This document shows positions 2,901 to 54,381 of a stretch of DNA of 64,000 nucleotides, in pieces. The position numbers and the translations under genes are program-made. The stretch is taken from positions 1,687,001-1,751,000 of the forward strand of contig OZ029921.1 of NCBI GenBank assembly GCA_964023275.1. Direction: 5' to 3'. The DNA comes from Norana najaformis. Its lineage: Eukaryota; Annelida; Clitellata; Crassiclitellata; Hormogastridae. Below the pieces are notes generated by a model, which saw nothing but the letters and a program-made list of their open reading frames with translations, did not search any database and was not told the DNA's origin. Each line of letters starts with the position of its first letter. The stretch's first letter is position 1.

Positions 2901-3088
2901 CTCCTCGTGTTGGAATAAGAATAACGTAGTAAATATTTATTTATCTAAGGCAAAATTTGAAGAAGAGTGATAAAAGTTATAGTTCTTCTAATAAATGTCT
3001 TCTTTGATAGGTTTCTGGTTCGGGTCTGCTGACTGCGTGTAACGACTCTGCGAAGCAGCAGAATTTGGCACCTGGCAAGTCCGCGATT

Positions 3089-3708: not shown

Positions 3709-3759
3709 GACCCCAAGGTTCTGGACACGGGTGTCTCAGCTGATGAAGATCGTCACTCG

Positions 3760-27778: not shown

Positions 27779-28804
27779 TGTGCTCTCAGAACTGTCTCGG
27801 ATGAAGACACGTTCAAGAGACCAACAGATTCATTACTCGTTTCCTTACCATGATCTTTATTTTTGTCACATCTTAAGCATTATCCCAGAAGAGTTATTTA
27901 TACCTGCAGTAGGTGAATAAACAAAAATTTTACATAATTAAAGAATGATTAACATCACGATTATTAATTCTAGTCATCTTTACTGCTATTACTGCATACA
28001 GAGATGGGTAACGTTTTCCTGGTACACAATCGAGATCTGAGTCATTACAGAATTTGAACTGAACAAAGTTATCAGTAATCCTAAAAAAGTCGTCTTACTT
28101 GTAAACAATAAGGCAACCTCAGACTGCGATAGAAATTAGAAGCCACCCAAAGGACTATCAACGAAATAAGTAATTAATCAGCAAGTGGTTCTCACGACGA
28201 CAAGAGCAAGAGTTCATCTGGTGAAACGCATTTCTTGAGAACATCTTTTCAAACATTCTTATAGACATCAGAGAAACTTGCCCCATTTCTGAATTTATTG
28301 ATTTATTTATTGATAGCAATAAAAGTATTTTTGAAAAACTTTGTTACTCTGTTACTCATCGATTAATTACTTACTTATTTCATCCACAATCCTTCCGGTG
28401 GCTTATCAGTCTAAGAAAACACTGCTAAATAAATAACACGATTTCTGTTCATAAATGCACATTTATAAAACGTCTTTACACATTATTAAAGGCCAGGAAA
28501 TGGTTTAGGTCGTCACATTATCCTCACAGTTACATACGCAGTTACCCCTTTTTCATTCAAGACAATATCGTACATGATTTATTATATATCAAAATCAAAT
28601 CCTCGTTCAATTCTTCTTATAAACCGCTTGGGCTCTGTAGCAAAAATCTAATTCGATTTTGCGATCTTTGTCATTATATTTCGTAAAAATGTATTGGAAC
28701 ACAAACGTTACTATACGTTATAAACACAGCCCAGTAGCGCCGCCCAACGGCGCCGCCGAACAGTGAAACACAGATTATACGTGAATTGAATACAGGCCCC
28801 CGAA

Positions 28805-30787: not shown

Positions 30788-33700
30788 CTAGACACGGAAA
30801 TCGTATGTATCATAAATTCTCTTTAATAATCGGGTGTTATAAAAATGATCAGATACACACATACATACACAAATACACACACACTCCCATAAAGCTGTCT
30901 TTGGAAGCTATATCAAGAACTGCCTTAAACATGGGGCATGATAGCCACTTGGTTAGAGCGCTCGGCTTGTAACATGCAGGCAACGGGTTCAAGCCTCCCC
31001 TGGGATGGTTACTGTGTAGGGACCTAGAGCAAGTTCTTCACTCACAATTGTTCAGCGCCATCGACTGATGCTCACTCATTAGATACTGGCGCTTAATAAA
31101 AGCAGAAATAACAATGCTACGGTGAATTTTGTTTTCCATAGCTCAAGTAATTTGGGGATCAATTTTCATGATCGTTTTTTGTCAGAATTCGTATCATAAT
31201 AAAGCGTGTTATTATACATTATACTTACATTTCTTATGGTCAAACCCTATGTACTAATATGTATTTCTGTATCTGAAACTTTTAAATAGTGGTTTTAAAA
31301 ACCTCTGTAATGGCCATCTAAGAGATCCAAACAGATGTGACTTAAGGAAAGCTGAAAATGCACGTTGATCCAGGTCTAATGGGAATAACAGAAGACCAAT
31401 CCCTTTAAGGGAACCCTTAGCGGCAGACATGGGAAAAATGTTAGCGACTTCACTTTCTTAGCCTCAGCACATGAGGGAGGGCAATAGTCCTCATCCTCGC
31501 CATCTGATCTTCCCACTGACAGTATACTCATTCGACAACCAAATTTGCTAGGAACAGAAACTGGAAAGAAATTTCAAGATATCTTTTTGCTCTAGTGCAT
31601 GGAGATTTGAACTTTGGACATCTGGGTTGACAGTCCACTAAGCTAGCCGCTGAACAACCGCTCCTTCAAGTCAAGTGAACAGTATATAAAAACTAACAAG
31701 AAATATGGCAACAAACAAGTCAATTAAAAAATTCTTGAAACAAACCAATTTCACAGATGAATTCGTGCGTTTCATCTTCGCAGGATCCAGAAAACCACTC
31801 AAAATTCTTCTGCGGGTCGAGGTATAGGCAGTTCTTTTGAAACACGGGTTCTCCACTACTGAATTTGGTGTAACATAGCTCGGAACCTCCAACAACTAGA
31901 ATTAAAACAAGATACACGGGAACTTCAATACGCTGCAGATTGCTACAGCACTAGTTTTGTTGTGTAAAAAGGCGGCAGTGGGAAACAGGCAGTGTGGGTC
32001 TTGCAGCGGCAAAAATAGATCTGCCCTTAAATTTTCCATCTACTCAATTTCAGGTAAGATAATTAATCAGTTAGACAATAAGTAAGTAGTAATTCTACAA
32101 GAAACATAAAACGTAAATGTACACATTTTTCTGTAGCGACCGTGTGGCCCTCACCCTGTTCATTTTGTCAATCAGATGAGATCCTTCACTGCCGCTGCCC
32201 GTTTAAATGGGCACCACCATGCCATTTAAGGTCCCCGAGTATGGAATTAACACCACTCCCACTCTCCTGCACACATGATTGCAATTGAAAACTCAGAAAT
32301 TTTTAAAGTGCTACTCAGAAGCTAAGTGCAGGGCACCAGATTATTCACGAGTGCCAAGTCAAGTCATGGGGATGCTCAAATATCGCATGAAGAGCAAGAT
32401 CCGACTGCTTGGAGAGCAGAGTAAGGACAGAGGAGCTGTTGCAGTGGAATAAAAAAGGGGTCAGGTCAGGAAGGAAACATGGTGTTACACTGGAAATCGT
32501 TGGTGATGACGGTCATGGGATTGTGCAGAAGCAGAAGTAGGACAGGACAGCTGAAAACTTTGGTTTTCAGTCTTGCATGGAAAGCCGAAAGAGGGGAAAT
32601 TGAAGTCCTATGGTGAAAAAGCATAGTCTGGAACAGAAGGAGGGATTCTATACTATAAGAAAACAGGTTATAGAAAACAAGGAGAAAAGCCACATATACG
32701 ACGAGAAACGTTCCTCTGAGATGGAAATTCAGCGCACGGGTTTCTGGAAAGATTTTCCGATGATTCTGTATTGTTTGACCATTTTTTGCAGCATCACATG
32801 CATAGCTTCAAAGGAACATCAAAGGTGATGAATTTGTGATTTCTTGCAAACTTACGGTCATCCCAGTAGTAGATTCGGGAGAAGAGTCCGATCCAAATAT
32901 AGCGCTTGGACATTGAGGGGAATGTGACCTTAGCAGCCATCTGAATTTCCTCTCTCTTTTCTTCAGTGTCTATGATAAGAAGATCTCCACTCAAGCTCAG
33001 GCAGTGCTAAAAGACAACAACATTTTGCATTTGTGATGTATTGAGTTAAATAAACTTGCACTTTATAAGTCTTCTTCTTATAATGATAATAATGATAATG
33101 ATAATAATAATAAAAATAATAATAATGATAATAATAAAAATAATAATGACAATAATGATAATAAAACTCCCAATGCCACTGTCTTCTGTGGCACTTTTCC
33201 ATGCCTGAACTTGACATAATGTAGCCACTCTAAATGACTACTAATTTTCTCTACACATTTCCTAAATCTTAACGGATCATATCTACCTCAGCACAAAACA
33301 AAAAATAATAACAATAATTCAATGTATCATCAGAAAACATCTAACACAAGCTTGGATTCAGAGGCAGGCAATTCAGCCATAACCCTTGCCCATTCCCATT
33401 TGATTCGGGGGCCCACACCACTGAGCTGGCTCCAAACTGGTTGGGGCAAGGGTTAAGAAAAGGTCAACAAATATTGTACTCTAAGCCACTGAAGATTGTC
33501 AAAGTTCCCTGTGACACAATAATTCAAAAATTTAATCAGAAATTATTTATGATGAAACAAAAACAGTCCTGAAAAGTTGTGATGACAAAAAGGATACTCA
33601 AAAAAGTTTGGCAAAATTAAGAGGTATCTTCATACATACGTACATAAACTCCCAGCCCAGCCCAGAAGAGTTGCGAACAAGAAACAAGACTCACCGTTCT

Positions 33701-36700
33701 GGCTTGATGCCAAGTGACTTCATCATTGCCAAAGTATACACAGGTTCCCCAAGACATACTTCTGTAATCTGGCCCCTTCCCACAGGAATCAGAACCTGTT
33801 TGATAGCACAATATACGCAAACAATTCAGAGTACCCCCAGTGTAATGTCTGCTAAGACCACGCACTACTGTCCCTAGAACGTGTGTAGCAAACTGTATGG
33901 CCCCAACCCTGCTCATTTTTCTATGAATTAATTGGGTTAAATCCTTCACCACTGCTGATGAAGGATCTAACACCATTTAAGGTCCCTATGTATGAACCGT
34001 GCTAGCCCAAGATTTGAATCTCTAAATAAGCCACAACTGGGACGCAAACCGGCATCCTCACATTCAGAAGCACCTGAAGCAGATATAAGTTATTTAAAAA
34101 CCGTAAAGGAATTTTAGGGCAGTAAATTCTTCAGTGCAAGTTTTAGACTTGTGGAATGGTTTAGGTGAAAGTGCCGTCTCAGTTAACATTATCACAGCTT
34201 TTATGCAAAAGCTAGGAAAGATTGGCTAATTAGCATTCCACGTCATTTGCAATGGTTCGAACACAGACTAAATGTCTCCTGAACCTCTTAAAACCCATGT
34301 TAATTTCATGTCATTGTTGCCGAGGTTATTCATGAGTGCTGTGTCAGGTCAGTGGGGTTGTCTAAAGATGCCATGTCCAGAACCAAGCTTGGATGCCAGA
34401 ATCTGGGGCTCATGCCAGAAAGACAGTGAGGTGCTAAGGTGGGAAGCTGTTACTATGGCAGTGGTGGTCGTAACGATAAACTAAAATACAAGATCTACAT
34501 AAAATCGCTGCAACGTACTTAACTGGCAGATAAATTTCTGGTCCTCGTTGCAAGGTCGACTGGCAAATCTCTTCTTTTTATCCAACTCAAACATATCAAT
34601 CGCACCACACCAGTGTCCAGACGACATGTTTTTTGGTTCGTTGTAGTGCCACATGGAGAAGTCTTCGCTGATTGCTGTTTTCAATCAATCCATCAACCAA
34701 ACCATCAATCATATCTAAGAATGATCCTCAGGAATGAAAAAAATTATATAAGTAAACCTTCATTAATCAAGAGTTCAGTAGTACAGTGTTAAAACAACAC
34801 AATAAAACATCAAAAAACTGCAAGACAGATTAAAAACATAAGTTACTCTGGAATGGAAATTAAAATAATTTTAAGTACATTTCCTGCGTACCATAAATTG
34901 TAAATTTTGTATATGTAAGCGAATTTTACGTTTTAGATTACGAATACTCTACATTTTCGATTACTGAACGGAAAAGAGAATTATTTTTGTTTTTATATAC
35001 TACAGTCCTGTAACACTGTAATTTCCTAATAACATGCATATTGTGAATATCAGAAGCAGAGTAATCTACAGTGGAACCCTCTTCTTCAGAGAGCGCATGA
35101 TGTTAGGAGAATGTAGAAAGCTGATATTAAGAAATTATTCAGCCTTTTTTCTGTATTTTGAGGCCATCTCGAAAGGCAATGGCATTGGAAACAAATGGAA
35201 TGGAATTCTATTCGGCATGGTGGTCTAATGATTTGGTCAATAAAGATCATGCAGTTGCGGGTTCGACTCCGTGTAACAACCCTGGGCAAGTAGTTTGTGC
35301 ACACCGTGCCTCTGTCACCAAGCAGAATTTGGTACCGCCGTAAGCTGGGAAGTAAACGGCAAGTCCTGCGATGAACTGGCCCCATCGTCCAGGACCCTGG
35401 CGTTCATCCAATGCCTGCTCAAGGGCCTAAAGAAAAGGAAATGAGCAACTCCCTATGTCTCACTTGTTGGATATGGGATACTTTACTTTTTCACCAAATG
35501 GGAAAGGCATTGGAAAGGAAACCAAACTTTGGGTTGGAGGCCCCAAAAAAGTAGATTAGACATTAACATCTATTGGACTGGTAGCTAGCTTGCCAGTACC
35601 ATGCCACCAGTGGAAACCGTTGGCTATCTATCTACCCAACATCAGGGAATGATTTTTTACATTCAGCAAACAAGAAAAATGGGAAAGAAAGATAAGAAAA
35701 TGTAAGATAAAAACTGACAAGTTGCCTTGAAGACAGCATTAGCACCAATTCCTCCACAATGCTGGCTGTAGTCTCCCATGCACGGCTCGACACACTCCTG
35801 GGCCGGACCATACATCCCGAACGAAATGCCACATGTGCACAAGTTCCCATCCTGAAGGTTCACAAATGTTTACACAGTCCAGTGTTGCAATGTAACATAA
35901 ATCACCAAAAAATAATTAATTAATAAAAATTAAAGAATAAATCACCATTATACTTACCACAGTAAGCAGAATGATAAATACAAGCACATAATATCTGGGC
36001 TGCATTCATCCCTAAGGCTTTTGCTGGTAGTGGCCATTAAACATCGAACATTGCGCGTATGTATGTATGAGTTGTAACCGTAATCACAAATTTATATACA
36101 GCCTTTTAAATAGAAACTCTTCAGCGGCACTCCTGACAAGAAAAATGCATTCAAACGTATTTATATAGCACCTTTAAGACCTTACCAAATGCACTGCACA
36201 AAATCAACATCTATCCAACAGAAATAAACGGTGCTTCTCATGACAAGCTGAAACCGCTTCCTGAGCCATTTTTTGCAGTGAAGTTCTAATTCTGAATGGA
36301 AGACAGTGATTACCATAGCCCTGGAGCTATCATGCTCGGAGAACCCCTAGCTGTTTGTTCTGCAAACGGTGCTACATAAATCGATAAACACAATACAATA
36401 CTGCATGCTATGGCTGGAGATAAACTGATGAACGATGTCTGCAGCATAGCAAGAAATGCTCCTACCCGGACTCCAGCATACTGGAAGTTATGCTTTCGAC
36501 ATTCCTTAAGGCAACTGGCGGGCGTTAAGCTTTTTGGTTCAACATTCGCAACATGCAAGAACTCTTTCTCCTTCTCATCCTTGGCCTCCATGTAGCATCC
36601 CTGCGACATGACTGCTCGATCAAGAAGTTCTGGAATCAATTAAACCGCCCAGTCTGTACTACAATGATCCTATACTTTTAAAGTTAAAAAGATAAATTTT

Positions 36701-39700
36701 AAATTAACAAGTTGAAAAGAAATAAAAAATTGATATACAAACTATTCAAATACAAATTATCCAGTTAAATTAGCTGACTACATATTCAGATGAATTAGGA
36801 TAAAATTTAAGAGAAATTCAAAAATTACCAAAATTACTAGCTAAAATAATAATAATTATTATAAAAAGATTAACAAATGACTTACCAATACCCAAAGATT
36901 TTTCGCTTTCACAAACACCGGTGCCTATGAAGAATCAAACCAAACAGCGTATCAAAAACACATAACTATCATCAACACAAGAGCAACTTCTGTAAGGAAC
37001 AAGGTCATAATCGTAATCATAATTCCAACATTTCTACAGCGCCCAACGAAAGCCACATCATGGGGACCAGCTTATTCACAGGCGCTCAGTCAAAACAAAA
37101 TCGATAAGAAAAAAGGGTTCGGTTCCAGGTCAAGATCCAAAAGTCAGACGGAAAGACAGCGTGGCAGCTATGGTGGGTGGTGCTTGGTATAGGAGGAGAG
37201 AGCAAGATAAGAGGACGATGCCGTATCATAAAAAACCCACACTTGCCATAGAAAGCAGCTCTGAAGAAGAGAAAAGCAGGGTATGGGACAATGGAAAAGG
37301 ACAGCAGTTACTTTTAAGATCTTACAAATAGGTGATTGGTACTGAAATATAGATCTAGACTGCATGGCTCTGTCTTAATGAATTGTGAATTTGGAACGTG
37401 ATTTTAATTTAATGGACCAACGATTGCCTTGAGGAAAGTTAAAAGCAGGACTAATGGCTGATGCATTGCGCATAACAATAATGGCATTTTTCGTAATTTT
37501 AATCGTAAGCTCGAGACTTCCACAGCGCCCAATGAAAGCTAAGTCGCGGAAGCCAGCTTATTCACAGGCACTCAAAACAAAATCAACAGGCAAGAAGGAT
37601 TCAGTTCCAGGTCAAGATCCAAGAGTCAGGCAGGCAGACGGCTATCTCGGATGGTGTCTGGAACCACTCCAATAAATAGAAAAATTATTTTAATTCAATA
37701 GAGAAGTTTCTGAACTAGATTAGAGGTTCTGAAAAGACGCAGTACAAACGTTCAGATACATGCAATCAAAACAATGAGCAAATTACCCTGAACGACTCGC
37801 CAAAGTGAAACCGATTGATTGGTGAAGGCAATTTCGTTGATGAGTGTGGCGCCGATCCACATCGCGTCCGTAATTTTGTGGATCTTGAGGACCTTCTCGA
37901 TAATGTTCTGTATCTTGACGCTCTTGATCGACACCAGTTTGCCGTGTTTCATTTCGCATTCAGTCTGCGCCTCTTTCCACTTGAGATTTGCCTTCATGAT
38001 CAGGTAACACATCGCATCCTCACAGAAGGTCGCTGCAAACAGATTACTCATAATTGTAATTAAAATATCCCATATCCCACAAGTGAGATGTAAGGAAGAT
38101 GCTCACCTCCTTTTCTAGGCCCTTGAGCTGGCAATGGACGAATCCCAAAGTCATGGACACGGGGCCAGTGCATCGCAGGACTTGCCGTTTACTTCCCAGT
38201 TTTATGCCAGTACCAAATTCTACTGCTTGGTGACAGAGGCATGGTGTGCGCAAACGACTTGCCCAGGGTCGTTACACTGAGTCGAACCCGCAACCGTATG
38301 ACCACTGACCAAATGCATTACTGATAGATCACCGTGTCACACATATAGTTGTAACTGCACATCTAAATAGTGAAAAAACAAAATTCCTCAGAGGTGCTTC
38401 CAACCTGATGAAACATAAGACCACAGTCAACAGTTGAATATAATGGTCATCAACCAAAACTGATTGTCCTCATTCCTAAATACGTCATAAAATGCAAATA
38501 ATCATAATCTCGAAATTATCAAAGTGCTACCTAAAAGCTAAGCGCAGGACACCAGCTCATTCACGAATAAATAAAACCTTCGGAAAACTACATCAAATCT
38601 TTGCAAAACGAACCTTCTGCCTCAACAATCGTATCATCTTTGTCCAGATCTGAAACAGACAAAAAGACAGAACGAAATGACAGAATTTACGACAACTGCT
38701 TCTGGTCCCTGGGGTGTCATTAAAACCAGCCGGTTCAAATGTGCACAGAAAAGAATGTTGGCTACCTAAAACATTCCAAAATCCATCACTCTGTTGGCAC
38801 AAAGCTCCTCAACATCAGGAAATATATCACAAACTTACACTGGTCCCTATATGCATTGAAAAAGTGTCCTTTGTAGGAGTGCTATAGTTAGACAAATTAA
38901 TTTCAAAATCTAATCTTAGAACTACTATGACAGGATTGTAATAATAATGATCAATCAATCAATGGTTACTGCCAATCAAAATCAGTGTGCATGCCAAAGC
39001 TGAGGGTACGTCCAGTAAAAAACCGAAAATACTGTTAAAGCCCCAAAATCGTAATCGTAATCCTTAGATTTCTACAGCGCCCAACGAAAGCCACGTCAAA
39101 TAGTTTTAAGGTCTTTGTGTCATTTTTATGACTACTGCAATTGTTACAATATTACTTTCCTTATATAATGAAAATTTTGCCAAACAAATTTTCTGCACTT
39201 ACCAACTATTGGTATTGGTGTCATTGAGGCTGAAACAACGCAAATTCTTTAATTAAGAAAAATTATTGCAGCATACTCCATTTAAAACGTTTTTCAAATA
39301 TCAAACTACAACCCTGTGATAAAATATGAAGAGCTGCTGAGTAACCGCGATCAATTTCTATTATTTCATACATTGTGTTATACATCTGGATTAAGTGGTG
39401 CTCTGTTCAGTCAGTGTGCACAGTCTGCGACCTAACGGTTGCAGGTTCAAGCCTGCTCATCAGACTCTGTATAACGATTCTGGGCAAGTTGTTTTAACAC
39501 ATACATGTGCCAACATTACCAAGCAGTATAATTTGGTGCTGGCAAGAGTTTGAAAGTACACACCAAGTCCTGTGATGCACTGTACCCACGTCCAGGACCT
39601 TGGGACCCACTCACTGCCAGCTCAAGGACCAGAGCAGGAAATGAGCACCTATTTTAAATCCCACTATAAAACACGGGACCTGAGCTTTTCAGTTAAATTA

Positions 39701-42700
39701 AAACCCAAAAGCTAGTGGATATTATTTGCTCTTTTGAGGCAGCACAAGAATTGTGCAAGTGCTTTACTCTGACAGAAGGCCCGCAAGTGTTGTGTAACTG
39801 ATCTAATCTAAAGACTTCCATAGCGCTGTTATCATAATGCCCAAGGGATCAGCCGATGGTCACTTCAAGTCAAAATCACAACCCAAAATCACATGATCTG
39901 TTGGAGACGGTGGGTTGAATTCTGATAGGTTAGAGAATCCAGGAGCCAGACTACAGTGGCTAAGGAAATTGAAAGATTCTTTATTTTAGACCAGAATTAC
40001 ATCAAAGATTTGACAGAACAAACTGAAATGGCCAACACATAAATGATTGCCTTAGCTTGCCCATCCAACTCCACCCACCCTATCATACAACACCTGTGCA
40101 GTGGAAGTTAACTTAACAGTTGAAAGTTCTACATGACATCACAGTGGCCCTTACTTTTCACTGGAGTTGGCATCAAGTCGGACTCTTTTAGTCGTATGCA
40201 CTGTTTGTTCAGAACATAGAGAACGGCATCATTGCTCGACAGAAGAACGTCAAACTTGATGTTCTTGTAATGGTAGTAACAGCCGAGGCCACGTTCGACC
40301 TTGCGTATCTCCGCGGCCATACACTTCTTGTTGTGGACACACGAATCCAAGCACTGCCACGTACTAGACACTTTGGCGTAGAAGACAGCGCCAGGTGACC
40401 TCATGAACTCCTTCTGTACAACACCCTTTGTGCACTCTGTGCAAACCACAACATCCTCTAATGAGGTAAGGTAAGGTAATGCTATCTATAAGATAAGGGA
40501 GTTATATCGGGTAAGGTAAAGTCAAATTTAGGAACAGTTAATACAAGAATAGATATGGTCAGGTAAATGTAAATGACACTGAGCAAAGGTAATCCTTTTG
40601 AAGAGCAAGGTTAATGTAATGTTCATACAGCTCAAGTAAGGAAATGATCAAGGTAATGCTTTTGTAGAGCAAGGTTACCGTGACGTTGGTACAACTCAAA
40701 TAAGGTTTCTCTAGGAAAACATTAAGGTAAGATTGAGTTAAAGTTAAGTATGCTAAGGTAAGTAAAGTTTAAGCAATAGTCTTCGTGACGTTAGCTCAAG
40801 ATGACAAAGCAAGGCAAAGCCACTGTCAGGTTAAAGTTAGGTTAAGATAAGATAAATTCGGGTATGGCAGAGGTATTGCAAGGTTAAGATTTGGTAAAAC
40901 AAAGATAAAACAAGCTGAGGTAAGGTTATATTAAGGCAGAGCTGCTACGGTAAATAACTGGGCAACCTTTCCAATAAATAGAAAAATTATCTTAATTAAA
41001 TTAAGCAAATAAAAAGCAATGAAATCTGCAAAAAATGACAAATACCTGGCTTGATATCTGCCTTGCCTGGTAGCTCTGGAAATGCAACATGTTGTAATTA
41101 GCATAACACTTTAACGTATTACGTTAAATGATGTAATATAACCTATTCAGATAACGTAAATTTATCCTCTGGAGTGTGTATGCATGTATGTATGTATGTG
41201 GCTATTTACATAGTGTCTTTTAGAAACTTCACAGTACTATTGATATCTAAAAGATCTAAAAGGGTATGATTTAAATAAATAAACTTTAAAAAATTAATCA
41301 GAAATATAATGACAACATAATAATTAGAATCTGATGAAATCAGATCAGGTAATTATGCATTTAAAGTGCTACATAAATGTCTCTTTACATTACATATATA
41401 ATCCAATCTAATCTAAAGACTTCTATAGCATCGTTATCACAATGCCCAAGACATCAGATGATGGTCGTTTCAAGTCAAAACAAATACCGCTATAGCGCCG
41501 TTATCATAATGCCCAAGGCATCTGATGATGGTCGCTTCAAGTCAAAATCGCAGTTAAAAATCATAAATGGTAAAATTGCAAAATCATAAAATCATAACAA
41601 TATGTAACAACAACGAGTGCTCAAAAGGTGCTTTTCAATACGTACGAGGGTGAATTATACCTTTTGTGGGAATCTTTGCACAGTCACTAATCAGTTGATA
41701 CTGAATCCATCTGGAACCAGACAGGGCATAATAGAAGTCGGCAGCGTCGCTGTGCACGACGCAACCTTCCTCTTCGTGATAGTCGATGCCCTGGCACTTG
41801 GCATCGTTCTGACAGCCATCGAGGCACTGCTCCAGAGTCTTGCTCTTGGAATTGGTACCTCCAGGGGAGTAAAAGCCAGGCTGTCTCTCCCAATTCAACG
41901 CTTTGCAGACAACTGAAGGAAAAGAATCACAGACTGATTATTCATACTTTCAAGTTGAAACAGACAATATTAGTAAAAGAAAACAAACGTACAGCTCCAC
42001 ATCCCATCACAGGGCAGGCGCTCATTCCTTCTCTTCGGCCCAAAGCATTAAATGGACAACATCTCAAGGTCCCGGATTCGAGGCCGGAGCATCGTAGGAC
42101 TTGCTGTTTACTTCCCAGCTTTTGCCAGTGCAAAATTCTACTGCTTGGTACAAGAGACTCAATATATCATGATGTGACCTAGCAGAACCAAAACAGTGGA
42201 ACAGATGACGTCACCTTTTCAAGAAATCACACCCTGATTCGTCAAATCCACTGCCCTCTTGTTTTCTCTCAGCTTAAACACAACCCACCCTAACAGCTCC
42301 TCTCCAACTTTGCTCTCTGATCTTCTGTCAGCTGGGCTTGGTTCTTTACACGGCATCTTTGGACAACCCCACTGACTTGACGCAGCACTCATGAATAAGC
42401 TGGTGCCCTGCACTTAGCTTTTAACAAGTGCTTTATAAATTTAAGTTTATCCTGGTGGGAATTTGAAGTCCCCACATCTGGGTTGACAGTCCCACATGCA
42501 CGCAATCACTTGATAATCGCGCATCAATAAGTTGTCAATCAAAAAACTGATCTGCAAAAATTTTGTTTAGGCGTACCTTCGGGTTTCGAAGTCTCCTCCA
42601 GCGGAGCTACAAATTGACAAGACAAAAATCTCAATCATAACATCAATCAACAATCAATCAAACAACAATCATAGCATAAGCTTTTCTCTGGAAAAGGTAA

Positions 42701-45700: not shown

Positions 45701-48700
45701 TTCTGAGGTGCTAGTAAAGTATGCATGATCGATTTCAGCAGCACTATATTATGTCTTATTTCAGGAATTTGAATCTTGGTCTAGCACGATCCATACACGG
45801 GGTCCTTGAATGGCGTGGCGCCCATTCAAACAGGCAGCAGCAGTGAAGGATCTCACCCGGTCAATTCATTGAAAAATGAGCAGGGTATAAGCCATACAGG
45901 TGCTATAGAAAATGTGTACAAATATGATGAGGACAACTCTTAAATTTCTCAGTCTATGCCAGAACCCATTTACCACTTCCAAAGGGATGGAGAGCTGAAT
46001 GGGCACTGGATGACATGGTATTCCATGAATGGTCAGTCATCAAGTACTAACCTGGCTCGATGGTGCTTAAATTCACCACACCTGCCAGCACATACCTAGA
46101 AGTCACACTTACCACAGTGTGTTGTACTTGTAACGTAAAGCTAAAGTAAAGTAAAGTGTCCATAGTGCGATGTAGGGAGGCATTCATATATTTTGCTTAG
46201 GTCCCTGTGCTGACAACTTCTGGAACAGTCTTCTTCTGGAAATTCAAACTCTTCCTCCTTTAATGGCTCAAGAAACATTCTCGGCACATCTTAACACACA
46301 CCTTTTTGGAACTATTAGGTAGTCCTGCCACAGCACCTTTGTAAGGTTCTTAAATGTGCTAGATAAGTTTTCGGATACATACATACATATAATAGATTTG
46401 ACTAATCTGATTGTACCACACTATATAACAATTTACTCAGTATTTCTTTGTCAGAGGCACATCTCTTAGCCAGGTAGTAATGTCGGATGTTGGCCGTGCT
46501 GTAGAACTTGGTCCGGTCGGCGATTGCCGTGAACAGCCAGCATTCAATTGGACTCCGGCCAAAGTTTATGTCGACCGCAATACATTTCGTGTCCGCCAGA
46601 CATTCCGCCAGACAAGTACGCGGCATGAGGATGGCATTGTTCGGGGAGGTGAAGTATGATCCACCGACATAATGGGTGTTGCGTCTCTCCTCCCACTGCC
46701 CAAGACAACCTACAAACAGAAATCAGAATGGTAACTACAATGATTGTAATCGTAAATGTAAAATCAAGATTTCTACAGTGCCCAATGAAAACTAAGTTGA
46801 GGAAACAGCTTGTTCACAGGCGCTCAGTCAAAACAAAATCGATAGGCAAGAAGTGTTCCAGGTCAAGATCCAAGAGTCAGGCAGGCAGACAGTCAGATGG
46901 CTATGGTGGGTGATGTTTGGAATTGGTTCTGTAAGGTAAGGTAACTGCTAACATTCACTGGGTTTAGCTGCAAGTACTTCCAAGTAGATATCTTCAAGTG
47001 GTGCTTTATAAATGTTGTAAATAAAAGAATGACTGAATGAATGAACAACTGATTGAATGAATGAGTAAGTGAATAAATGAATAGGTAATCAATTACGCTG
47101 GAACCTACTGATAACTGAACAGTTTCAACTTACCCTTATTCTCCAAGGACTTGTGTGTAAAATCTCCTGCAAGGCAAATATAAGTGATAAGTGATTTAGT
47201 TTCAGCAACAGTAACGCACAGATCTTCCTAACACACTTGTCAGCTGTAACAAAAATTATGCATAGATGATGGATTAAGAAACTACAGAGATGCTCTGAAT
47301 GAATGAATGAATGACTAAATGGGTGGAGGAATAAACAACAGCAAGAAATAAATAACATAGGTGGCACTCCACTGTGTAAACACCTCATATGGCAGTCTTT
47401 CTGCACAATCATCTTTTCTTAAACTTTCATCAGTTCAACTGTAACTTTTTGCAGTTACAGATTGTGTGTGGCAACGTGGCGTATTCTATAACTTGCAGGG
47501 TTCGTAATCCAACGATTGTGAGCTCGAAGCTGCTGAATGGACTACACATAACAAGTTGATTTTGTGACACTTCATATTCCGATTTATTGACCCTTGAACA
47601 CAAAAAATAAATTAATAAAGAAATAAATACTTTTAATTATACATACAGTGCCTTTCTTGTATTAGATCAGAATTTACAGAAGATACAAAAATTATTTCTT
47701 AAGTCAAAAACTTACTCGATTTTTCGACATCAACTGGGGAACACCTATCGACAAGCTCCCACTGTTCCGTATTTGCCATAAGCAAAGGTGATAAAAGCTT
47801 GGTGCGATCGACATGGACCCGACATACCAGGGAATCATCCATCACGTTCCCTGACCACTGCACATCAACCGCAATGCAGTTACGTTCCTGCAAGCAGGTG
47901 TCCCGACAAGCCGATGCCGAATGGATTTCCGGGCGGATCAATCCACCCGCGCTGTAGAAGTAGCTTCTTTTTGTCCATACTGGACGGCATCCTGTTGACA
48001 CAAGTAAGGTATTACAGGGTAAGGCAAGATTCAAAGTCTAAAAAAAATAATTTATACAGCCGTTATGATAATAATCATAATTGCAAACTCGAGCTTTCTA
48101 CAGCACCCAACAAAAGAAAAGTCATGGGAACCAGCTTATTCACAGGCGCTCAGTCAAAACAAAATAGGCAGGAAGGGTTCAGTTCCAGGTCAAGACCCAA
48201 GAGTCAGGCAGGCAGTCGGTCAGGCAGTTATGGTGGGTGGCGTTTGGAATTGGATCTGCAGGACAGATAAGGGGAAGGTGAGGAACGCAGAAGGTAATGA
48301 TCAGTCCAAGAACATTGGCAGAGTGGTTTGTAATTGTAACATAAATGTAAATCTCCTAAATTTCTCAGTGCCACACAAAATCACGTCAGGGAGACCAGCT
48401 CATTCACTGGTGCCATATAAAATCAGGCCAACAAGAACCAGATTGGTCAGTTTTGGTGCCAGGTCAGAATATGGGGGTCAAGCCGTGAGATAACATGGCG
48501 CTATGGTGGACGATGGTTTACACAATGCTGCGTGGTCAGCTAAAGCAAGATAACCTATTCTTAGTTGTCACCCAGATTTTTATTCTTAATCATCAACCAC
48601 ATATTTTATGCCCATTTTTACTTTCCACCAAATTTTTAGTCTCTCTGGCTTCTCATTTCTCCCATGACATTAGGCACACCAAAATTTACATCTGCATGGC

Positions 48701-51700
48701 CCAAAGTGGGGAGTGGGAGCCAAAAACACCTTTACCCCAGATTTTTTAGTGGAGACCATTGCATTGTATCAAAATGCCTGTTAAAAATGAAGTGCAAGTG
48801 TGAATGTTCATTTTTTATACGACTCTACCAGTTAATCTTCATCGGTTTTGATTTCTTCACCGTTAGTATTACCAAGGCACAAAATTTCATTCCTTCCTAA
48901 CTGCATCTCATTTCAAAGTCAGTAACTAGTAGCTTTCAATCAGTAACTTTGCTTATTCACAGATCATGTGGCTTCTGAATTTCTTTCCTCCTGAAGTGTG
49001 CTATATAAAGTCTTATTTACACTTACATTACAATGACGACATGACTCGCGGCATTTGGTTCTGTAGTGATCTTACCTGAAGGTGGGCCAGAGGGTGGAAC
49101 TGTCGTCACACCTGCAACATTTAAAAATTTGTAACCAGTCAGTATTTTAAAATCTAATATAGTCAATGTCTTCATTTTATAGCCGATTATGTTATGGGGC
49201 ACAAGATGAGAACTCTTGAAACATATCTCCATCCTGGTGGGGATTTGAACCTCCAACCTTTGAGTGGATAGTCCAGCATACTAACTACTAGGTTATCATA
49301 CCCCAAGATCCAAGAGTGTGCGGCAGGGTGGTCTATTGGTATCGCGTTTGGTCAATGATCATGCGGTTGTAGGTTCAACTCCATGCAACAACCCTGGGCA
49401 TATTGTTAGCACACACCTTGCCTCTGTCACCAAGCAGAATTCGGTACCAGCATAAGCTGGGAAGTAAATGGCAAGTCCTGCGATGTGCTGGTCCCACGTC
49501 CAGAACCTTGGAATTCGTCCAATGCCGGCTCAGGGGCCTAAGGAAAAGGAAATGAGCGCCTCCCCTACGTCTCACTTGTGGGTTACGAGAAACTTTACTT
49601 AATTTAACACCCAAGAAGAGGATACAGATGAAAGAACCAACATACCGGCTGCTCCACATCTGCTTGTGATAGTGTACTGTGATGCCCCGGATACCTTAAT
49701 GACCTCTCGCAGGCTAAATGTCTTGATGTGGTGGTAGCAGAGCACCCGAGTTCCCTCGCTCATCATGTCAACGGCGAGGCAGTTGGAACGTAAAACGCAC
49801 TGGTCTTTGCACAGGTCAGCTGTGTTTAAATTCGCCAAGTAGATTCCTCCTGGCGACACAACATCTTTCTCAACCTTCCACTGTGTGCCACTACAAGCTG
49901 AAATTTCAAAGAATTAAATAGGAATGTACTAATTTTATAATAACAATAATAATAACAAATGCAATAATAATAACAATAGTAATAGTAATGATAATAATAA
50001 TAATAAAAATAATATTAACAATAGTAATAATAATAATAACAATAGTAGTAGTAGTAGTAATAATAATAATAATAATAATAGTAGAAGTAGTAGTAATAGT
50101 AGTAGTAGTAGTAGTAATAATAATAATAATAATAACAGCAAAAGAGATACACATGCAAGACATCAAACTTGAAGCAGAGACAAGACTCTTGCAGTATCTC
50201 TGGACAATCCCTCTGACTTGACACAGCACTCAAGAATCAGCTGGTTCCCTGCACTTGGGTTTTAAGTAGCACTTGAGAAGTTTATAGTTCACAATTACAA
50301 TTAATCTAAATCTAACTTCTCTAGCCCCATTGTAAAACTCCACAATGCATCAGTCAGTGACATATAGACATATCAGAGGTAGCTTAGCAATAAGACAACG
50401 AAAATATGTGAACACAAGATGATAGTATGACAAGACGATATCTCAGTGGTTACTGAGTAACCAGATAATTTGATAAAAAAAAGATGGCAAGATTTAAATA
50501 TTAAAATAAATACTGTTACTAACCTTCTTCACATGTTCCTTTGGAGATGTTAATGGAATCAACTGCAGTTTCTTCCCCAGTTCCACCTGAAATGGCTCGC
50601 CAAATGATCTGCTCAAGCAACAGTTTCATTTCAATCATAGCTCAGGGTATCCAACTGGTAGACAACACTACAATAGTAGACTTCAAGAGCTTAGATTAGA
50701 TAAAAACTGGATTAAACTGGATTATACTGGTTTAGTTTAAATGTAAACATACACGGTTTTTCTATAGCGACCATATGGCCTTGACTCTGCTCACTTTTCA
50801 ATGAATGAATCGGGTAAGATCCTTCACTACTGCTGCCCGTTTGAATGGGCACCACGCCATTTCAGGTCCCTGTGTACGGACCGTGCTAGCCCGAGATTCA
50901 AATCTCAGAAATAAGCTACAACTGGGAAGCAAACCGGCATCCTCATGCTCAGAGACAACTTAACGTACACATTAACCAATGTAGCTAACCAAGGCCAATG
51001 CTTAGATCATTTTAGCTTAAAGAAATGACAAGAATATATTAAATTACTATTAATTGAGAGTCTGTGTTTGCAAGACACAGCCAATGGTGACTTTTCTACT
51101 TACTTACAGATGAACTTGAACTGTAATGTAACTTAGGGTAGCAAAGGCAATGCTTTTGTAAGGCACCAAAAGGCGCTATAAAAGTATGTTAATGTACTAG
51201 ATCAGTGGTTCTCAAACTTTTTGGTCTGAGGATCCATTTACACTCTTAAAAATTATTGAGGACCCAAAAAGCTTTTATTTACATGTATTACATCTATCAA
51301 TATTTACCGCATTACAAATTATAACTGAGAAATTAATATATTAATTCATTACAAAATTCCAATAATAAGCCCATTACATGTTCATATAAATGACATAATT
51401 TTTATGAAAAGTGACTGAATTTTCCAAGTATTTTCTTAGTATTATTCTGAAAATAGATTAGACCTTGTGGGCCCCCTGAAATGGTCTCGGGGACATCCAG
51501 GGGTCCCCGAACCACCCTGAGATGGTGGTCTGGGAATGGTGGTCCATACTAGATGCTGAGAAAGGAGCCGGATTTGGCTACAGAGAACTAAAGACCAAGG
51601 CAAAGAATGCAAGAATGGCGTCATTGAACTCCTGACCTTGTGAAACAGTCAAGTACTAAAAGACAATTGGCACCGACTAACCCTTTCACCAGATTCCAGC

Positions 51701-54381
51701 GAGTAAGACAATCGTTCGAGGATCCAATTCCTGATGCTGACATCTCCACTCTGCCAGATTTCTTTACGTGACGCAGTCTGGCTGCCTTTCTGAGTATAGA
51801 CGATCATTTTGCCGACTTTGGTGCCATAGGTGGAGTACGCAAACTGAATGCATGCGACCCCTGATGAACTGAGGTCAGGTGTAGAGAATCTGAAATCAAA
51901 ATCTAATCCAATCTAGCGACTTCTAAAGCGCCGAATGTATGAAGAAAACCACATTTCAGCAACTCAGAAACATGACCATCTCACAGTCTTTCCCTTTCTT
52001 CCCCTGAAAATTCAAACTCTTCAGCCGTAGAAAGCTCTCAAAACAGTTTATTTTAAACCACATTGTCTTAGAATAATTGCTAGATAGCCATATTTCAGCA
52101 ATGCTGAGAGATTCCAAAAAGGTGCTAAATAAATATTCATACATACATACACATACACATACATGCACGCACATGCATGAATACATACATATATACATAC
52201 TGTACACTCACACGCATGCATGCATACATACACACACACACAGACATACATATGTATGTACATACATGCATACATATAAACATGAATGCATACATACTTA
52301 CATATATACAAACATGAATACATACACACATGCATACATAAATGCATACATACCAGTATATACGCACACACATGCATGGCTTATAAGGGTAACAATACAA
52401 GTGACTATGTCTCGCTATTCTACGCACCATGTACGTATATGTGATGATGCCTATGAAATGGGACCACAACACTGGATTTATACAGGCCTCTGAATGTGGT
52501 CACCCATCAAAATATCAACACTGGGTCTTCACTGGCATTCACTAGGGGACGCCTCCGTCTATCAAATCTAGCACAACTGTTTATGAAAACTGAACATCGC
52601 AAGAATAACATTGCGAGCTGTATAACTTCCAACTAATGGATTTCCTGTGGACTATATATGAGTTTTACCAAAAATTGCACCTTTCAGGTACAGCATGTTC
52701 TAAATTCTACATAAAATGCCATAATACTCCAATTATACAACATTATACACCATTATTTTCAGAGTTTTTGATGATCATAGTGGTATAAATAACTCAAAAC
52801 CTGCCATGTGGTCCCTTTTCGCAGGCGGCATCACAATTATAGATTGATGAATAAATTATAGATAGATGAATAAATTATAGATTGATGAATAAATTATAGA
52901 CTGATGAATAATTTATAGATTGATGAATAACTTATAGCATAATGAATAATAGATTGATGAATAAATTATACTATCATGAATAAATTGCCACGTGTGGTCC
53001 CTTTTCATAGGCGGCATCATATATACTCCCAGGTATCAACATTCACAATGTTGTCAACCACAGATCATATATCAAAACCCAGAATATTCCTTCCATAACA
53101 TGAACCGTACTCGGAAACATGTAGCTTCTTCAAGTTTTCTGGAAACAAGTAGAATTTTGATTGGTCGTGGCCACCTTCCGGACCAGCATCCATCGATGTC
53201 GTCGCTCCTGACTTCCTGACCCAATCGCTGCCACTCTGCTGTATGCCACACAGGTCTGATTCAAAGTCGCATTGGAAAGGACCTATGAAACAGCGAGTCA
53301 TGAAAATACATTATATGACGAGTCATGAAAATATATTATTTGAAAAACGGTTTGTGTGCATGTATGTATTTATAACTTTATCCTACCTCTGATCCCTTGT
53401 ATGTATGTTTGTATGTGCATATATGTATGTATATACGTAAGTGCTCATAATGCATTATTTACATACTTATGTATGTATGACTGTACATTTTCTACATACA
53501 TATGAATGTGTATGTATACATGCATTTACATATGCACGTATGCATTTATGTGTGTAAGTATGCACGTACGTCTGTAGTTTTTAAACTGCTACTCATAATT
53601 CGAATATACAATAAAAATGATTTCTCAGTGTAAATTTCCATAATCGGAGATTTATATTGCATCATTCAATGGTCTTTGAATGTTATTTCCATTCTGTGTG
53701 ACTTCTATGACATCCATTATCTTAACTTTAAATGAGTTTTACCGAAAATCGCATCTTTCTGGTACAGCAAGTTCTAAAGTCTGCCAAAGGCATTGCCTGA
53801 TGGCTCGCTAGTTGCCATCCTCATCCCCGCTGATATACACGATACATATTACGATTTACAACTAAACAGATTATGATTTACAACTTAAACTTCTGCAGGC
53901 TCTACCAGTTTCTAGATTTCCGCGCACTCTCAAAAGCACAAGAATGGATAAACTGCATCACGCAGAGTAATTAAAAATTCGACTCTATAGGACGAGTTAT
54001 TACCATACTGAATATGATCAGCATAACAACACGTCAACAATTAATGGAAATTTATTTTCCCTTTCTTTGTCGTATACTTATCGACATTTTGTAGTGGTCT
54101 GTGCGAATGTTCAAACGCATTAGATTAGGTGCAGTATGTACTTTGCGCAACGTCTAAACTCCGCCCAGTGGCGTGAACCTGGCGCTCAGTATTTTACCAT
54201 TTTGTGAGATTTTTACATCAATCTCGCTCTTTCCCAAATCCCATAACATTCATTCAGTTTTCCTACCTTCTCCGGCTTTTACAATGGGGCTCATCACCAA
54301 AACCATAAGAACTGAGGCAGCCGATAAAATCCTGGGCCACGACAAGTGACAACCGCTGTCGAAGGTCGCCCTTAAAACCAT
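30611..54381 (-). CDS. Secreted/cell-surface mosaic lectin: MAM, PAN-like x5, CTLD, WSC, CTLD (3' end not found)
   Basis: I assembled 26 exons by frame, splice sites and domain logic: 54267-54381, 53147-53282, 51682-51889, 50524-50608, 49646-49897, 49076-49111, 47716-47991, 47134-47166, 46437-46709, 45539-45565, 44011-44034, 42577-42606, 41661-41912, 41046-41075, 40155-40457, 39203-39229, 38614-38649, 37787-38032, 36886-36924, 36466-36629, 35719-35851, 34519-34674, 33695-33795, 32856-33006, 31746-31895, 30611-30787. They sum to 3460 nt, about 1153 codons, in one frame. Order: signal peptide, MAM, five six-Cys PAN/Apple-like modules separated by mini-exon linkers, C-type lectin halves flanking a WSC domain, a second C-type lectin, and a Pro/Lys-rich tail. 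All these are extracellular adhesion or carbohydrate-binding folds. No membrane segment was found in these exons. The gene leaves the last exon in phase 1, so at least one terminal exon is missing. I know no family with this order. Confidence 0.85.
30930..31110 (+). repeat. tRNA-headed SINE (SINE-V)
   Basis: GGGGCATGATAGCCACTTGG, TTAGAGCGCTCGGCTTGTAA and ACGGGTTCAAGCCTCCCC give good A and B boxes. The body includes GTGTAGGGACCTAGAGCAAG and the tail TGGCGCTTAATAAAAGC. Confidence 0.8.
31440..31665 (-). repeat. tRNA-related SINE (SINE-F)
   Basis: TCACTTTCTTAGCCTCAGCA, TCGCCATCTGATCTTCCCAC and, at the far end, GATTTGAACTTTGGACATCT and GGTTGACAGTCCACTAAGC, the reverse of a B box and anticodon arm. 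Related copies are at 30370-30570 and, in part, 42455-42530 and 49230-49300. Confidence 0.6.
31746..33795 (-). CDS. Mosaic lectin exons 23-25: second C-type lectin domain
   Basis: Exons 33695-33795, 32856-33006 and 31746-31895 give a complete C-type lectin fold. Exon 23 has SDSCGKGPDY, WGTCVYF and VTWHQART. Exon 24 has HCLSLSGDLLIIDTEE and YIWIGLFSRIYYWDD. Exon 25 has ELCYTKFSSGEPV, FQKNC, GSCEDETHEFICE. All canonical Cys and the W-I-G-L core are present. GEP stands where EPN/QPD occurs in sugar-binding lectins, and WND is absent, so calcium-dependent sugar binding cannot be assumed. Confidence 0.86.
32130..32275 (+). repeat. SINE-C copy
   Basis: GTAGCGACCGTGTGGCCCTC, CCCGTTTAAATGGGCACCAC and CCATTTAAGGTCCCCGAGTA. 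The 3' half is replaced by a SINE-E fragment (to about 32470). Confidence 0.75.
33078..33170 (+). repeat. AAT/GAT microsatellite
   Basis: About 90 bp of ATAATGATAATAATAATAAA-type sequence beside the 3' splice site of lectin exon 24. Confidence 0.95.
33885..34075 (+). repeat. SINE-C copy
   Basis: GCTCATTTTTCTATGAATTA, ATCCTTCACCACTGCTG, ACCGTGCTAGCCCAAGATTT and CAAACCGGCATCCTCA. Confidence 0.85.
34519..38032 (-). CDS. Mosaic lectin exons 18-22: C-type lectin domain split by a WSC cassette
   Basis: Exon 37787-38032 holds the N-half of a C-type lectin fold: CYLIMKANLKWKEAQTEC, then GKLVSIKSV and MWIGA, ending SVSLWRVVQ. Exon 34519-34674 holds the C-half: MWHYNEPKN, a Cys after HW, PCNEDQKFICQ. 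Joining them directly (both phase 1) gives a continuous fold of about 133 residues with the expected W-x-G...W...EP...C...C...FIC order. Three WSC exons lie between them in the DNA, all on the same strand. The calcium-binding EPN/QPD is EPK here and no WND triplet is visible, so classic sugar binding is uncertain. Confidence 0.8.
35214..35480 (+). repeat. SINE-A, near full length
   Basis: A tRNA-like head with GGTGGTCTAATGATTTGGTC and GTTGCGGGTTCGACTCCGTG. Then AACCCTGGGCAAG, GTGCCTCTGTCACCAAGCAG, GCTGGGAAGTAAACGGCAAG, GTCCAGGACCCTGG and CAAGGGCCTAAAGAAAAGGA. Confidence 0.88.
35719..36924 (-). CDS. Mosaic lectin exons 19-21: WSC domain cassette
   Basis: Exons 36886-36924, 36466-36629 and 35719-35851 encode a linker (GTGVCESEKSLGI) and a WSC domain. 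It starts QGCYMEAK, continues SCLKECRKHNFQYAGVR (the C-x3-C...YAG motif), then LCTCG, the paired Cys of ECVEPC, and ends HCGGIGANAVFK, the canonical CGG close. The outer introns are phase 1 and the internal one phase 0. I chose donor T|gtcagt at 35719/35718 because it keeps the full CGG tail and restores phase. A GC donor after AAG is an alternative but breaks the frame. WSC domains bind carbohydrate, as in yeast Wsc sensors and polycystin-1. Confidence 0.82.
37003..37185 (+). repeat. SINE-B copy
   Basis: ATAATCGTAATCATAATTCC, ACAGCGCCCAACGAAAGCCA, GGGACCAGCTTATTCACAGG and GGTCAAGATCCAAAAGTCAG. Confidence 0.88.
37493..37675 (+). repeat. SINE-B copy
   Basis: The same blocks as 37003-37185: CACAGCGCCCAATGAAAGCT, CCAGCTTATTCACAGGCACT and TCAAGATCCAAGAGTCAGGC. 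It ends 110 bp before the lectin exon 18 donor. Confidence 0.88.
38078..38345 (-). repeat. SINE-A, reverse orientation
   Basis: GCAGGACTTGCCGTTTACTT, AATTCTACTGCTTGGTGACA and GTCGAACCCGCAACCGTATG are the reverse complement of the 35214 copy. Confidence 0.88.
38727..38804 (-). CDS. Possible orphan C-type lectin tail exon
   Basis: A 78-nt phase 1-1 frame reads LCQQSDGFWNVLGSQHSFLC and TFEPA. It matches the end of a C-type lectin domain (W-N-x-x-C...H-x-F-x-C-x-F-E), but the first Cys of that pair is Gly. The acceptor (gaggag) has a weak pyrimidine tract. The donor is G|gttttaat. No matching N-half lies upstream. It is either a decayed domain or a rarely used exon. Confidence 0.35.
39390..39690 (+). 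repeat. SINE-A, diverged copy
   Basis: GGTTGCAGGTTCAAGCCTGC, ATTCTGGGCAAGTTG, CACGTCCAGGACCTTGGGAC and CAGGAAATGAGCACC. Confidence 0.75.
40155..49897 (-). CDS. Mosaic lectin exons 5-15: five PAN/Apple-like modules with linker mini-exons
   Basis: Five single-exon modules lie at 49646-49897, 47716-47991, 46437-46709, 41661-41912 and 40155-40457, each 84-101 residues and phase 1-1. Each shows six Cys with a core C-x3-C-x5-C then A/G-x-D/E: for example CKDQCVLRSNCLAVD, CRDTCLQERNCIAVD, CLAECLADTKCIAVD, CLDGCQNDAKCQGID and CLDSCVHNKKCMAAE. A Trp and an aromatic-GG segment precede it in most copies, and a closing R/D/Q-C follows. The pattern fits the PAN/Apple superfamily (plasminogen N-terminus, kallikrein, many invertebrate lectins), which bind protein or sugar. 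The match is by Cys spacing only. Modules 1-3 are most alike. Between them lie mini-exons 49076-49111, 47134-47166, 45539-45565, 44011-44034, 42577-42606 and 41046-41075. Confidence 0.78.
40458..40960 (+). repeat. Degenerate GGTAA-rich simple repeat
   Basis: GAGGTAAGGTAAGGTAATGC followed by many AAGGTAA/AGGTTAA words. It lies immediately upstream (minus strand) of lectin exon 15, so it forms that exon's pyrimidine-rich acceptor tract. Confidence 0.6.
41400..41560 (+). repeat. SINE-D, two partial copies
   Basis: CTAATCTAAAGACTTCTATA, GCATCGTTATCACAATGCCC and TGATGGTCGTTTCAAGTCAA, then the core again from TATAGCGCCGTTATCATAAT. Confidence 0.75.
42000..42165 (-). repeat. SINE-A, reverse orientation, partial
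   Basis: TAGGACTTGCTGTTTACTTC and CAAAATTCTACTGCTTGGTA. The tRNA-like head is lost. Confidence 0.75.
42215..42450 (+). repeat. SINE-E copy
   Basis: TTTTCAAGAAATCACACCCT, CACCCTAACAGCTCCTCTCC, GACAACCCCACTGACTTGAC and the tail CAAGTGCTTTATAAATTTAA. A second long copy lies at 56880-57130; fragments are at 32290-32470, 34320-34450 and 50205-50290. Confidence 0.75.
43500..43690 (+). repeat. Degenerate tandem repeat of about 20-22 bp
   Basis: Repeated CATCTTGAATCCATGCTCAT-like words, six or more copies with drift. Confidence 0.7.
45320..45452 (+). repeat. CAGA-type microsatellite
   Basis: GACAGACAGAAAGACAAGCA-type sequence. The antisense Cys/Leu/Ser frames here are artefacts. Confidence 0.95.
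45765..45910 (-). repeat. SINE-C, reverse orientation
   Basis: GGTCTAGCACGATCCATACA, GAATGGCGTGGCGCCCATTC and AATTCATTGAAAAATGAGCA, with the tail GGTGCTATAGAAAATGT. Confidence 0.8.
46738..46935 (+). repeat. SINE-B copy
   Basis: ATTGTAATCGTAAATG, CACAGGCGCTCAGTCAAAAC, AAAATCGATAGGCAAGAAGT and GATCCAAGAGTCAGGCAGGC. Confidence 0.88.
48060..48275 (+). repeat. SINE-B copy
   Basis: CTTATTCACAGGCGCTCAGT, AGGGTTCAGTTCCAGGTCAA and TATGGTGGGTGGCGTTTGGA. A diverged relative follows at 48320-48490. Confidence 0.88.
49318..49605 (+). repeat. SINE-A, near full length
   Basis: GGGTGGTCTATTGGTATCGC, CAATGATCATGCGGTTGTAG, AACCCTGGGCATATTG, TCACCAAGCAGAATTCGGTA and CTAAGGAAAAGGAAATGAGC. It ends just below the lectin PAN-1 exon. 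Confidence 0.88.
49932..50135 (+). repeat. AAT/AGT trinucleotide microsatellite
   Basis: About 200 bp of ATAATAATAATAATAATAGT-type repeats directly upstream (minus strand) of the PAN-1 exon acceptor. Confidence 0.95.
50524..53282 (-). CDS. Mosaic lectin exons 2-4: MAM domain
   Basis: Three exons (53147-53282, 51682-51889, 50524-50608) encode a MAM domain of about 143 residues. It opens QCDFESDLCG, matching the MAM CDFE-x-DLC signature. The middle exon carries ACIQFAYSTYG, the C-x-F-x-Y-x-x-x-G core. The third ends DSINISKGTCEE, the usual DDI...G-x-C close. All four conserved Cys are present. Internal introns are phase 2 and 0, while the outer ones are phase 1, as in shuffled extracellular modules. 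MAM domains mediate adhesion and homotypic binding in proteins such as meprins and receptor phosphatases. Confidence 0.88.
50745..50955 (+). repeat. SINE-C, near full length
   Basis: TCTATAGCGACCATATGGCC, ATCCTTCACTACTGCTGCCC, GGACCGTGCTAGCCCGAGAT and GAAGCAAACCGGCATCCTCA. Confidence 0.88.
52136..52375 (+). repeat. CATA microsatellite
   Basis: About 240 bp of ACATACATACACATACACAT-type repeats in the MAM intron between lectin exons 2 and 3. Confidence 0.95.
52803..53030 (+). repeat. 20-bp minisatellite between two direct repeats
   Basis: About eight copies of a TATAGATTGATGAATAAAT-like unit (52838-52985). On both sides stand near-identical blocks, GGTCCCTTTTCGCAGGCGGC at about 52811 and GGTCCCTTTTCATAGGCGGC at about 52995. 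Confidence 0.85.
53340..53580 (+). repeat. TGTA-rich microsatellite
   Basis: GTATGTATGTTTGTATGTGC-type repeats. Confidence 0.85.
54267..54381 (-). CDS. Mosaic lectin exon 1: signal peptide
   Basis: Met at 54381 starts 38 codons plus 1 nt, followed by donor G|gtagg. After a polar N-region (MVLRATFDSG) the hydrophobic core runs ILSAASVLMVLVMS, then PIVKA and GEG, a plausible signal-peptidase site after Ala. Met26 could be an alternative start but would shorten the signal. A TGACGTCA palindrome lies about 180 bp upstream. Confidence 0.75.

Follow-up and report, generated by a model that had tools for sequence, protein, structure and literature searches.

Here we describe a gene in a stretch of 64,000 nt from the annelid Norana najaformis (GenBank contig OZ029921.1, positions 1,687,001 to 1,751,000, forward strand), in which a WSC domain lies between the two halves of a C-type lectin-like domain (CTLD). 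This whole stretch, called the window below, is C9:1687001-1751000 of a 608-Mb genome with 17 contigs. The nested unit has five exons, all on the minus strand. They are the N-half of the first CTLD, or CTLD1 (37787..38032, 246 nt, phase 1-1), a possible linker microexon of 39 nt that we call w1 (36886..36924, phase 1-1), the first half of the WSC domain, w2 (36466..36629, 164 nt, phase 1-0), its second half, w3 (35719..35851, 133 nt, phase 0-1), and the CTLD1 C-half (34519..34674, 156 nt, phase 1-1). The exons have GT-AG borders and matching phases, and the coordinates and strand given for them in the initial annotation are borne out, with AG acceptors and GT donors at these positions. Its description of the WSC exons as a symmetrical cassette is also correct, i.e., w1, w2 and w3 add up to 336 nt in phase 1-1, and the reading frame is open both with and without them. 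Codon usage, in a model trained on 905 codons only, backs the proposed frame for the N-half (+41.8 bits), w2 (+18.9 bits), w3 (+16.7 bits) and the C-half (+12.8 bits). The w1 microexon has good splice sites, shows no coding bias (-0.8 bits) and would contribute one odd extra cysteine. It suits the style of the gene, since upstream of the CTLD there are two comparable candidate microexons in phase 1-1, and is otherwise unproven.

The window WSC domain matches Pfam PF01822 with 51.4 bits (E = 1.3e-13, cut-off 27.8 bits) over profile positions 2-82 of 82. This match starts at residue 23 of the 113-residue insert, i.e., in w2, and w1 is outside it. Thus, the complete WSC domain that had been assigned to three exons is present, but only w2 and w3 encode it. 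When the CTLD1 halves are joined, they match PF00059 (Lectin_C) in one stretch with 47.7 bits (E = 2.9e-12) over profile positions 3-106 of 107. By itself, the N-half scores 30.1 bits (profile 3-47) and the C-half 15.4 bits (E = 0.032, under the cut-off, profile 68-106). In the nested protein, the Lectin_C match (39 bits) is divided into two stretches, of which the best covers profile positions 3-66 and has its final seven residues in the insert.

Calcium-dependent sugar-binding C-type lectins have an EPN or QPD motif together with a WND motif. The C-half in the window has EPK and no WND, and that of a paralog on contig C8, described below, has QPD and no WND. Though the phase-1 join and the full profile match agree with the standard C-type lectin fold that was first proposed for the two halves, the EPK motif and the missing WND make "C-type lectin-like" the safer label. 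Since the window gene has EPK and no WND, classical sugar binding by its CTLD1 is doubtful. The WSC domain enters after W-R-x-x-x|G and before a Y-S-N-W-like stretch, a point that we take to be the N-terminal edge of the long-loop region. The insertion is thus at the long-loop region, as had been suggested, but at this edge and not in the middle, given the loop borders that we assume.

We searched the genome with the Pfam families for WSC (150 of 255 candidates scored, at least 150 matches listed) and CTLD (150 of 373 candidates scored, at least 90 matches listed). Paralogous loci were chosen where the two match lists coincided, and home-made models of the lectin halves and of WSC were applied to them. 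The search covered this single genome. The order N-half, WSC, C-half and then a second CTLD free of any insert (CTLD2) is found at five loci on five contigs, C9 (the window), C7, C13, C5 and C8. The nested order that had been read from the window gene is therefore confirmed, and more strongly than a single gene would allow. At C7 (L040), C13 (L038/L039) and C5 (L041), the N-half, WSC part 1, WSC part 2, C-half, CTLD2-N and CTLD2-C follow one another on one strand. Their exon borders are in phase 1 before WSC, in phase 0 inside WSC after A-G-x-x, and in phase 1 after WSC. No w1-like exon was identified at C7, where the intron preceding WSC has about 220 nt.

Between the five loci, the per-module identity is 20-57%. 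In an alignment of four loci, identity between the window protein and the paralogs is 29-32%, and 8/8 WSC and 6/6 CTLD cysteines are invariant; C8 matches in the five-row alignments. Eight conserved cysteines and a CGG motif are reported as the hallmark of WSC domains (PMC9024836), and all of these are present at the five loci. The six CTLD cysteines are likewise kept at each locus. In CTLDs, such cysteines close the fold, and one pair would link the N-half to the C-half. The WSC domains score 57.6, 63.3 and 64.6 bits at C7, C13 and C5 (order unassigned) and 37.5 bits at C8, all above 27.8 bits. With the WSC removed, the joined CTLD1 gives a full-length match above the Lectin_C cut-off of 22.6 bits at every locus (47.7 bits in the window, 49.7, 47.4 and 34.2 bits at C7, C13 and C5 in unassigned order, and 24.5 bits at C8). 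CTLD2 also exceeds the Pfam cut-off at all five. In leave-one-out hidden Markov models (HMMs), each built from the other four loci, 15/15 modules (three at each locus) beat all of their own 1000 shuffles. For example, the window N-half has 49.4 bits against 8.6 for its best shuffle, and the C-half 23.0 bits against 7.3. When each of the five nested proteins was used as a protein query, no sixth locus appeared among the matches listed.

The C8 locus, which came up when the C13 nested protein was used as a query, contains the first junction in a single open frame. In this frame (L047:4368-4820), the CTLD N-half runs directly into the first half of WSC and reaches a GT donor; the second half of WSC, the C-half and the second CTLD are found downstream. 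By tblastn, one alignment crosses the N-half/WSC junction with the C13 protein (residues 2-138, 31% identity, E = 2.0e-6), another with the C5 protein (residues 35-134, 36% identity, E = 4.8e-8) and, more weakly, a third with the C7 protein (residues 26-134, 27% identity, E = 0.001). Because these matches span the junction as single alignments, the first nesting junction is written in contiguous DNA at one locus. Since the N-half and the first half of WSC share one frame, the WSC of C8 cannot be skipped alone, and skipping it would delete half of the lectin. The fivefold nesting, including one fused exon, suggests a genuine receptor design that is probably old, and not a stray cassette.

The initial annotation proposed either that alternative splicing toggles between an intact lectin and one with WSC inserted, or that the isoforms end differently. 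In the toggle reading considered here, the WSC exons would be a spliced cassette and the main product an intact CTLD without it. Inverted copies of a dispersed repeat (35247-35434 and 38111-38301) flank the N-half and WSC exons of the window gene. Their longest arms have 79 nt with 91% complementarity and could pair in the pre-mRNA, which could favour skipping or circular RNA. The 336-nt cassette in phase 1-1 keeps the frame either way, the CTLD halves score higher in Pfam when joined (47.7 bits) than when interrupted (39 bits), and the w3 donor is weak. Against this stand the C8 fused frame, in which separate skipping of WSC is impossible, the WSC cysteines kept at all five loci, and the cysteines of the lectin halves kept together with those of WSC at the four loci other than C8. 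The toggle is therefore not supported, nor is it needed to explain the gene, and we consider a WSC-free main product very unlikely. Skipping may still be possible in the window gene itself, since the cassette is 336 nt long and phase 1-1.

Two further alternatives draw on the fact that the exons and genes are known here from DNA. In one, the WSC exons are part of a different gene or isoform, or each lectin half belongs to a domain of its own that is partly unseen. From the four introns we took ten minus-strand open reading frames (ORFs) of at least 45 aa, one of which shares 22 nt with w2 while the other nine are fully intronic, and found no CTLD or WSC match for them in Pfam; shorter hidden exons could remain, given the length covered. 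Hidden partner halves in the introns were rejected as candidates on this result. The exons are on the same strand with matching phases, the halves fill the profile as one stretch, and the same order recurs at five loci with the fused frame at C8, which makes an origin of these exons from separate genes or domains highly improbable. In the other, the loci are decaying gene fragments, and there are indeed repeat copies in the introns. However, at all five loci the modules have an open frame across almost the whole profile, the window exons have coding bias and the structural cysteines are all kept, so that decay is barely credible here.

The second CTLD is informative for the origin of the nesting. 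In the window it is encoded by three minus-strand exons (33695..33795, phase 1-0; 32856..33006, phase 0-1, which ends at the homologous phase-1 intron; and the C-half, 31746..31895, which starts in phase 1, the 3' end of this exon and of the gene being not fixed). Joined, and free of an insert, they score 37.2 bits in Pfam (E = 5.2e-9). The last intron of CTLD2 is in the same place and in the same phase 1 as the WSC-holding intron of CTLD1. This phase-1 intron is also present in the two CTLDs that were read at C10 and C15, one at each, with no WSC recognised in it. Because CTLD2 and the C10 and C15 CTLDs hold the same intron without WSC, we infer that the WSC-bearing intron is an older CTLD intron that was later filled. 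The CTLD exons at L001-L008 (C4, C5 and C8) continue through the site without the phase-1 intron. Clusters of CTLD N-half exon matches are seen at C10:0.38-0.95 Mb and C15:20.48-20.69 Mb.

A single insertion followed by duplication is most likely on these sequences, since the insertion column, the internal WSC intron and the second CTLD are all shared. A symmetrical phase 1-1 WSC module would have entered an existing phase-1 CTLD intron by exon shuffling, most likely once and before the family duplicated. In the CTLD tree, a branch that is not strong (77/78) separates the five nested CTLD1s from the five CTLD2s and from two further CTLDs. The WSC tree, however, does not bring the nested WSCs of the five loci together but scatters them (3 changes), as would be expected if WSC modules had entered the same CTLD intron repeatedly. 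No branch of this tree is starred and several of its ends are very long, and a single clade of the nested WSCs is not rejected (p-AU 0.074). With the phase-0 WSC intron, the insertion column and the following CTLD2 all in common and the CTLD1s on one side of their branch, we regard repeated entry as unlikely. The internal WSC break after A-G-x-x is also found in the array WSCs at C1:9.3-10.8 Mb and on C3, a hint to the donor lineage. At C1:59.5 Mb, C2 and C9:5.13 Mb, the split in the WSCs comes before A-G-x-x.

We suggest that the nested form is very probably the standard product of the window gene, with the WSC translated within CTLD1 and the family duplicated after the insertion. Several points weigh against this. 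The evidence is the DNA of one genome and the spliced product is predicted. The second junction, from WSC to the C-half, is read through in DNA at no locus, and depends on phases and order. C8, which supplies the first junction, is the weakest locus: its fused frame gives no Lectin_C match at E<=1 in Pfam, its nested protein has 18.6 bits (under the cut-off of 22.6), and its joined CTLD clears that cut-off only narrowly, at 24.5 bits. In addition, C13 requires GC donors at two exon ends, and the window w3 donor, GTCAGT, is weakish by a donor matrix. The scatter of the nested WSCs in their tree and the p-AU for their single clade belong here too.

For the protein itself, the WSC domain is reported to have a PAN/Apple-type fold with the sheet order b1-b5-b3-b4-b2 (PMC9024836, PMC5014086). 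Since its first and last strands are neighbours in this order, its ends should lie close together, and the module would fit a turn without breaking the host. The lectin chain would reach the turn after W-R-x-x-x-G, exit into WSC, return and complete the lectin fold. The long-loop region is the usual ligand-binding part of CTLDs. The WSC could thus be an extra lobe beside the ligand loops of the CTLD. On a receptor or matrix protein, the two together would offer a composite surface to protein or glycan ligands. A role in such a ligand surface is what we find most likely for the nested WSC by reasoning from its position. Because the CTL and WSC domains of polycystin-1 are reported to bind Wnts (PMC9672506), a protein ligand would be as likely as a glycan. 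Overall, the five loci probably represent an old family of animal receptors, in which a WSC domain came to lie at the ligand-loop edge of a CTLD, was duplicated to at least five places and, through one intron loss, was fixed together with half of its host.

CTLDs belong to the most widely used extracellular folds and are commonly regarded as units beside other modules. In polycystin-1, WSC and CTLD are consecutive and the CTLD is not known to be interrupted; this family also has LRR, PKD repeats and 11 transmembrane segments. Unlike polycystin-1, the window gene has the WSC inside the CTLD, beside MAM and PAN-like domains. Both have WSC and CTLD in the extracellular part of one animal protein, as is reported for the polycystin-1 (PKD1) family (PMC9672506). 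Kremen 1/2, the best solved-structure match of the window WSC (E = 6.6e-9), is similar in that its WSC is within a compact multidomain ectodomain, but it is described as Kringle-WSC-CUB, without a CTLD or nesting (PMC5014086). For the joined CTLD1, the best solved-structure matches are multi-CTLD receptors (PLA2R, LY75 and the mannose receptor family; E = 3.6e-9 for PLA2R), which similarly have several CTLDs in series. To our knowledge, none of their CTLDs contains an inserted domain. Domain insertions are reported in 20% of multidomain proteins in a study whose main text does not contain the word "lectin" (PMC13114784). We found no WSC-hosting CTLD in our searches of open-licence papers from PubMed Central, though unnamed predicted proteins of this kind may exist in annotated animal databases. 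If our reading is true, a domain at the ligand-loop edge would be a new way of building binding surfaces. The locus would also be a case of exon shuffling into the interior of a domain. Its steps can be compared within one genome, where the intron is found free of WSC (in CTLD2 and other CTLDs) and filled with it (at four loci), and where a fused exon stands in its place at C8.

Upstream of CTLD1, all on the minus strand, the window gene has further modules. Two ORFs match the MAM domain, the first part at 53065..53310 (exon borders not fixed; Pfam MAM 20.9 bits, E = 3.6e-4, under the cut-off of 26.4) and a later part at 51649..51912 (27.0 bits, profile 60-124 of 158). They are followed by five phase 1-1 exons of PAN type. 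The first (49646..49897) has no Pfam match at E<=1 and is similar by tblastn to its sister PAN exons (best E about 1e-7); the second (47716..47991; PAN_1, E = 0.077) and third (46437..46709; PAN_3, E = 0.012) are under the cut-offs and are also linked to sister PAN exons by tblastn. The fourth (41661..41912) matches PAN_1 with 24.9 bits (E = 1.9e-5) and the fifth (40155..40457) with 17.7 bits (E = 0.0033, under the cut-off). Among these upstream MAM and PAN modules, only the fourth PAN exon and the second MAM piece exceed the Pfam cut-offs. The two candidate linker microexons, of 27 nt (39203..39229, phase 1-1) and 36 nt (38614..38649, phase 1-1), are proposed from the splice-site pattern only. 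The gene product would be a multidomain extracellular protein with MAM, five PAN-like domains, CTLD1 with WSC inside it, and CTLD2. For the upstream PAN exons there was no convincing tblastn match at the paralogs within the DNA fetched there; this MAM and PAN region may occur in the window gene only, or its counterparts may have diverged too far or lie beyond the DNA that was fetched. At C7, a hydrophobic stretch of transmembrane type, noticed by eye, is located downstream of the second CTLD (L040, 566-766, minus). Since this stretch follows the second CTLD, the C7 paralog may be a membrane receptor. Upstream of the same nested gene is an open frame of 474 aa (L040, 7631-9052, minus), possibly a mobile-element gene.

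CTLD halves of at least 9 bits were found near WSC at none of six other WSC loci fetched with several-kb flanks (L042-L046 and L049); one C-half match of 8.0 bits at L044 was taken as noise. Twenty short loci (L013-L032, about 3.1-3.2 kb each) likewise showed no such halves. WSC half-exon arrays make up the bulk of the WSC matches listed, most of them on C1, and large arrays are seen at C1:9.33-10.77 Mb, C1:59.4-59.7 Mb, C3:12.3-12.84 Mb and C12:15.5-15.66 Mb. These arrays were rejected as nested genes, with no CTLD halves of at least 9 bits at the five array loci L042-L046. At C1:59500384-59500626 and C3:12842323-12842538, a protein match appeared to continue from WSC into a C-half; both were rejected as well, since no C-half follows when the DNA is read. 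At L035 (C9:5129000-5138900), two WSCs are followed by a CTLD N-half on the same strand (249-3713); by our models, these are adjacent and apparently not nested.

Other features of the window lie outside the nested unit, all on the minus strand. A reverse transcriptase open frame of 588 aa (54930-56696; RVT_1, E = 5.4e-43) is situated between the MAM exons and a phosphate transporter gene, the neighbouring gene, of which a Na/Pi cotransporter exon is recognised at 58613-59839 (PF02690, E = 2.1e-10). A stop-free open frame of 2225 aa, rich in Ser and Lys by eye, occupies 21152-27829.

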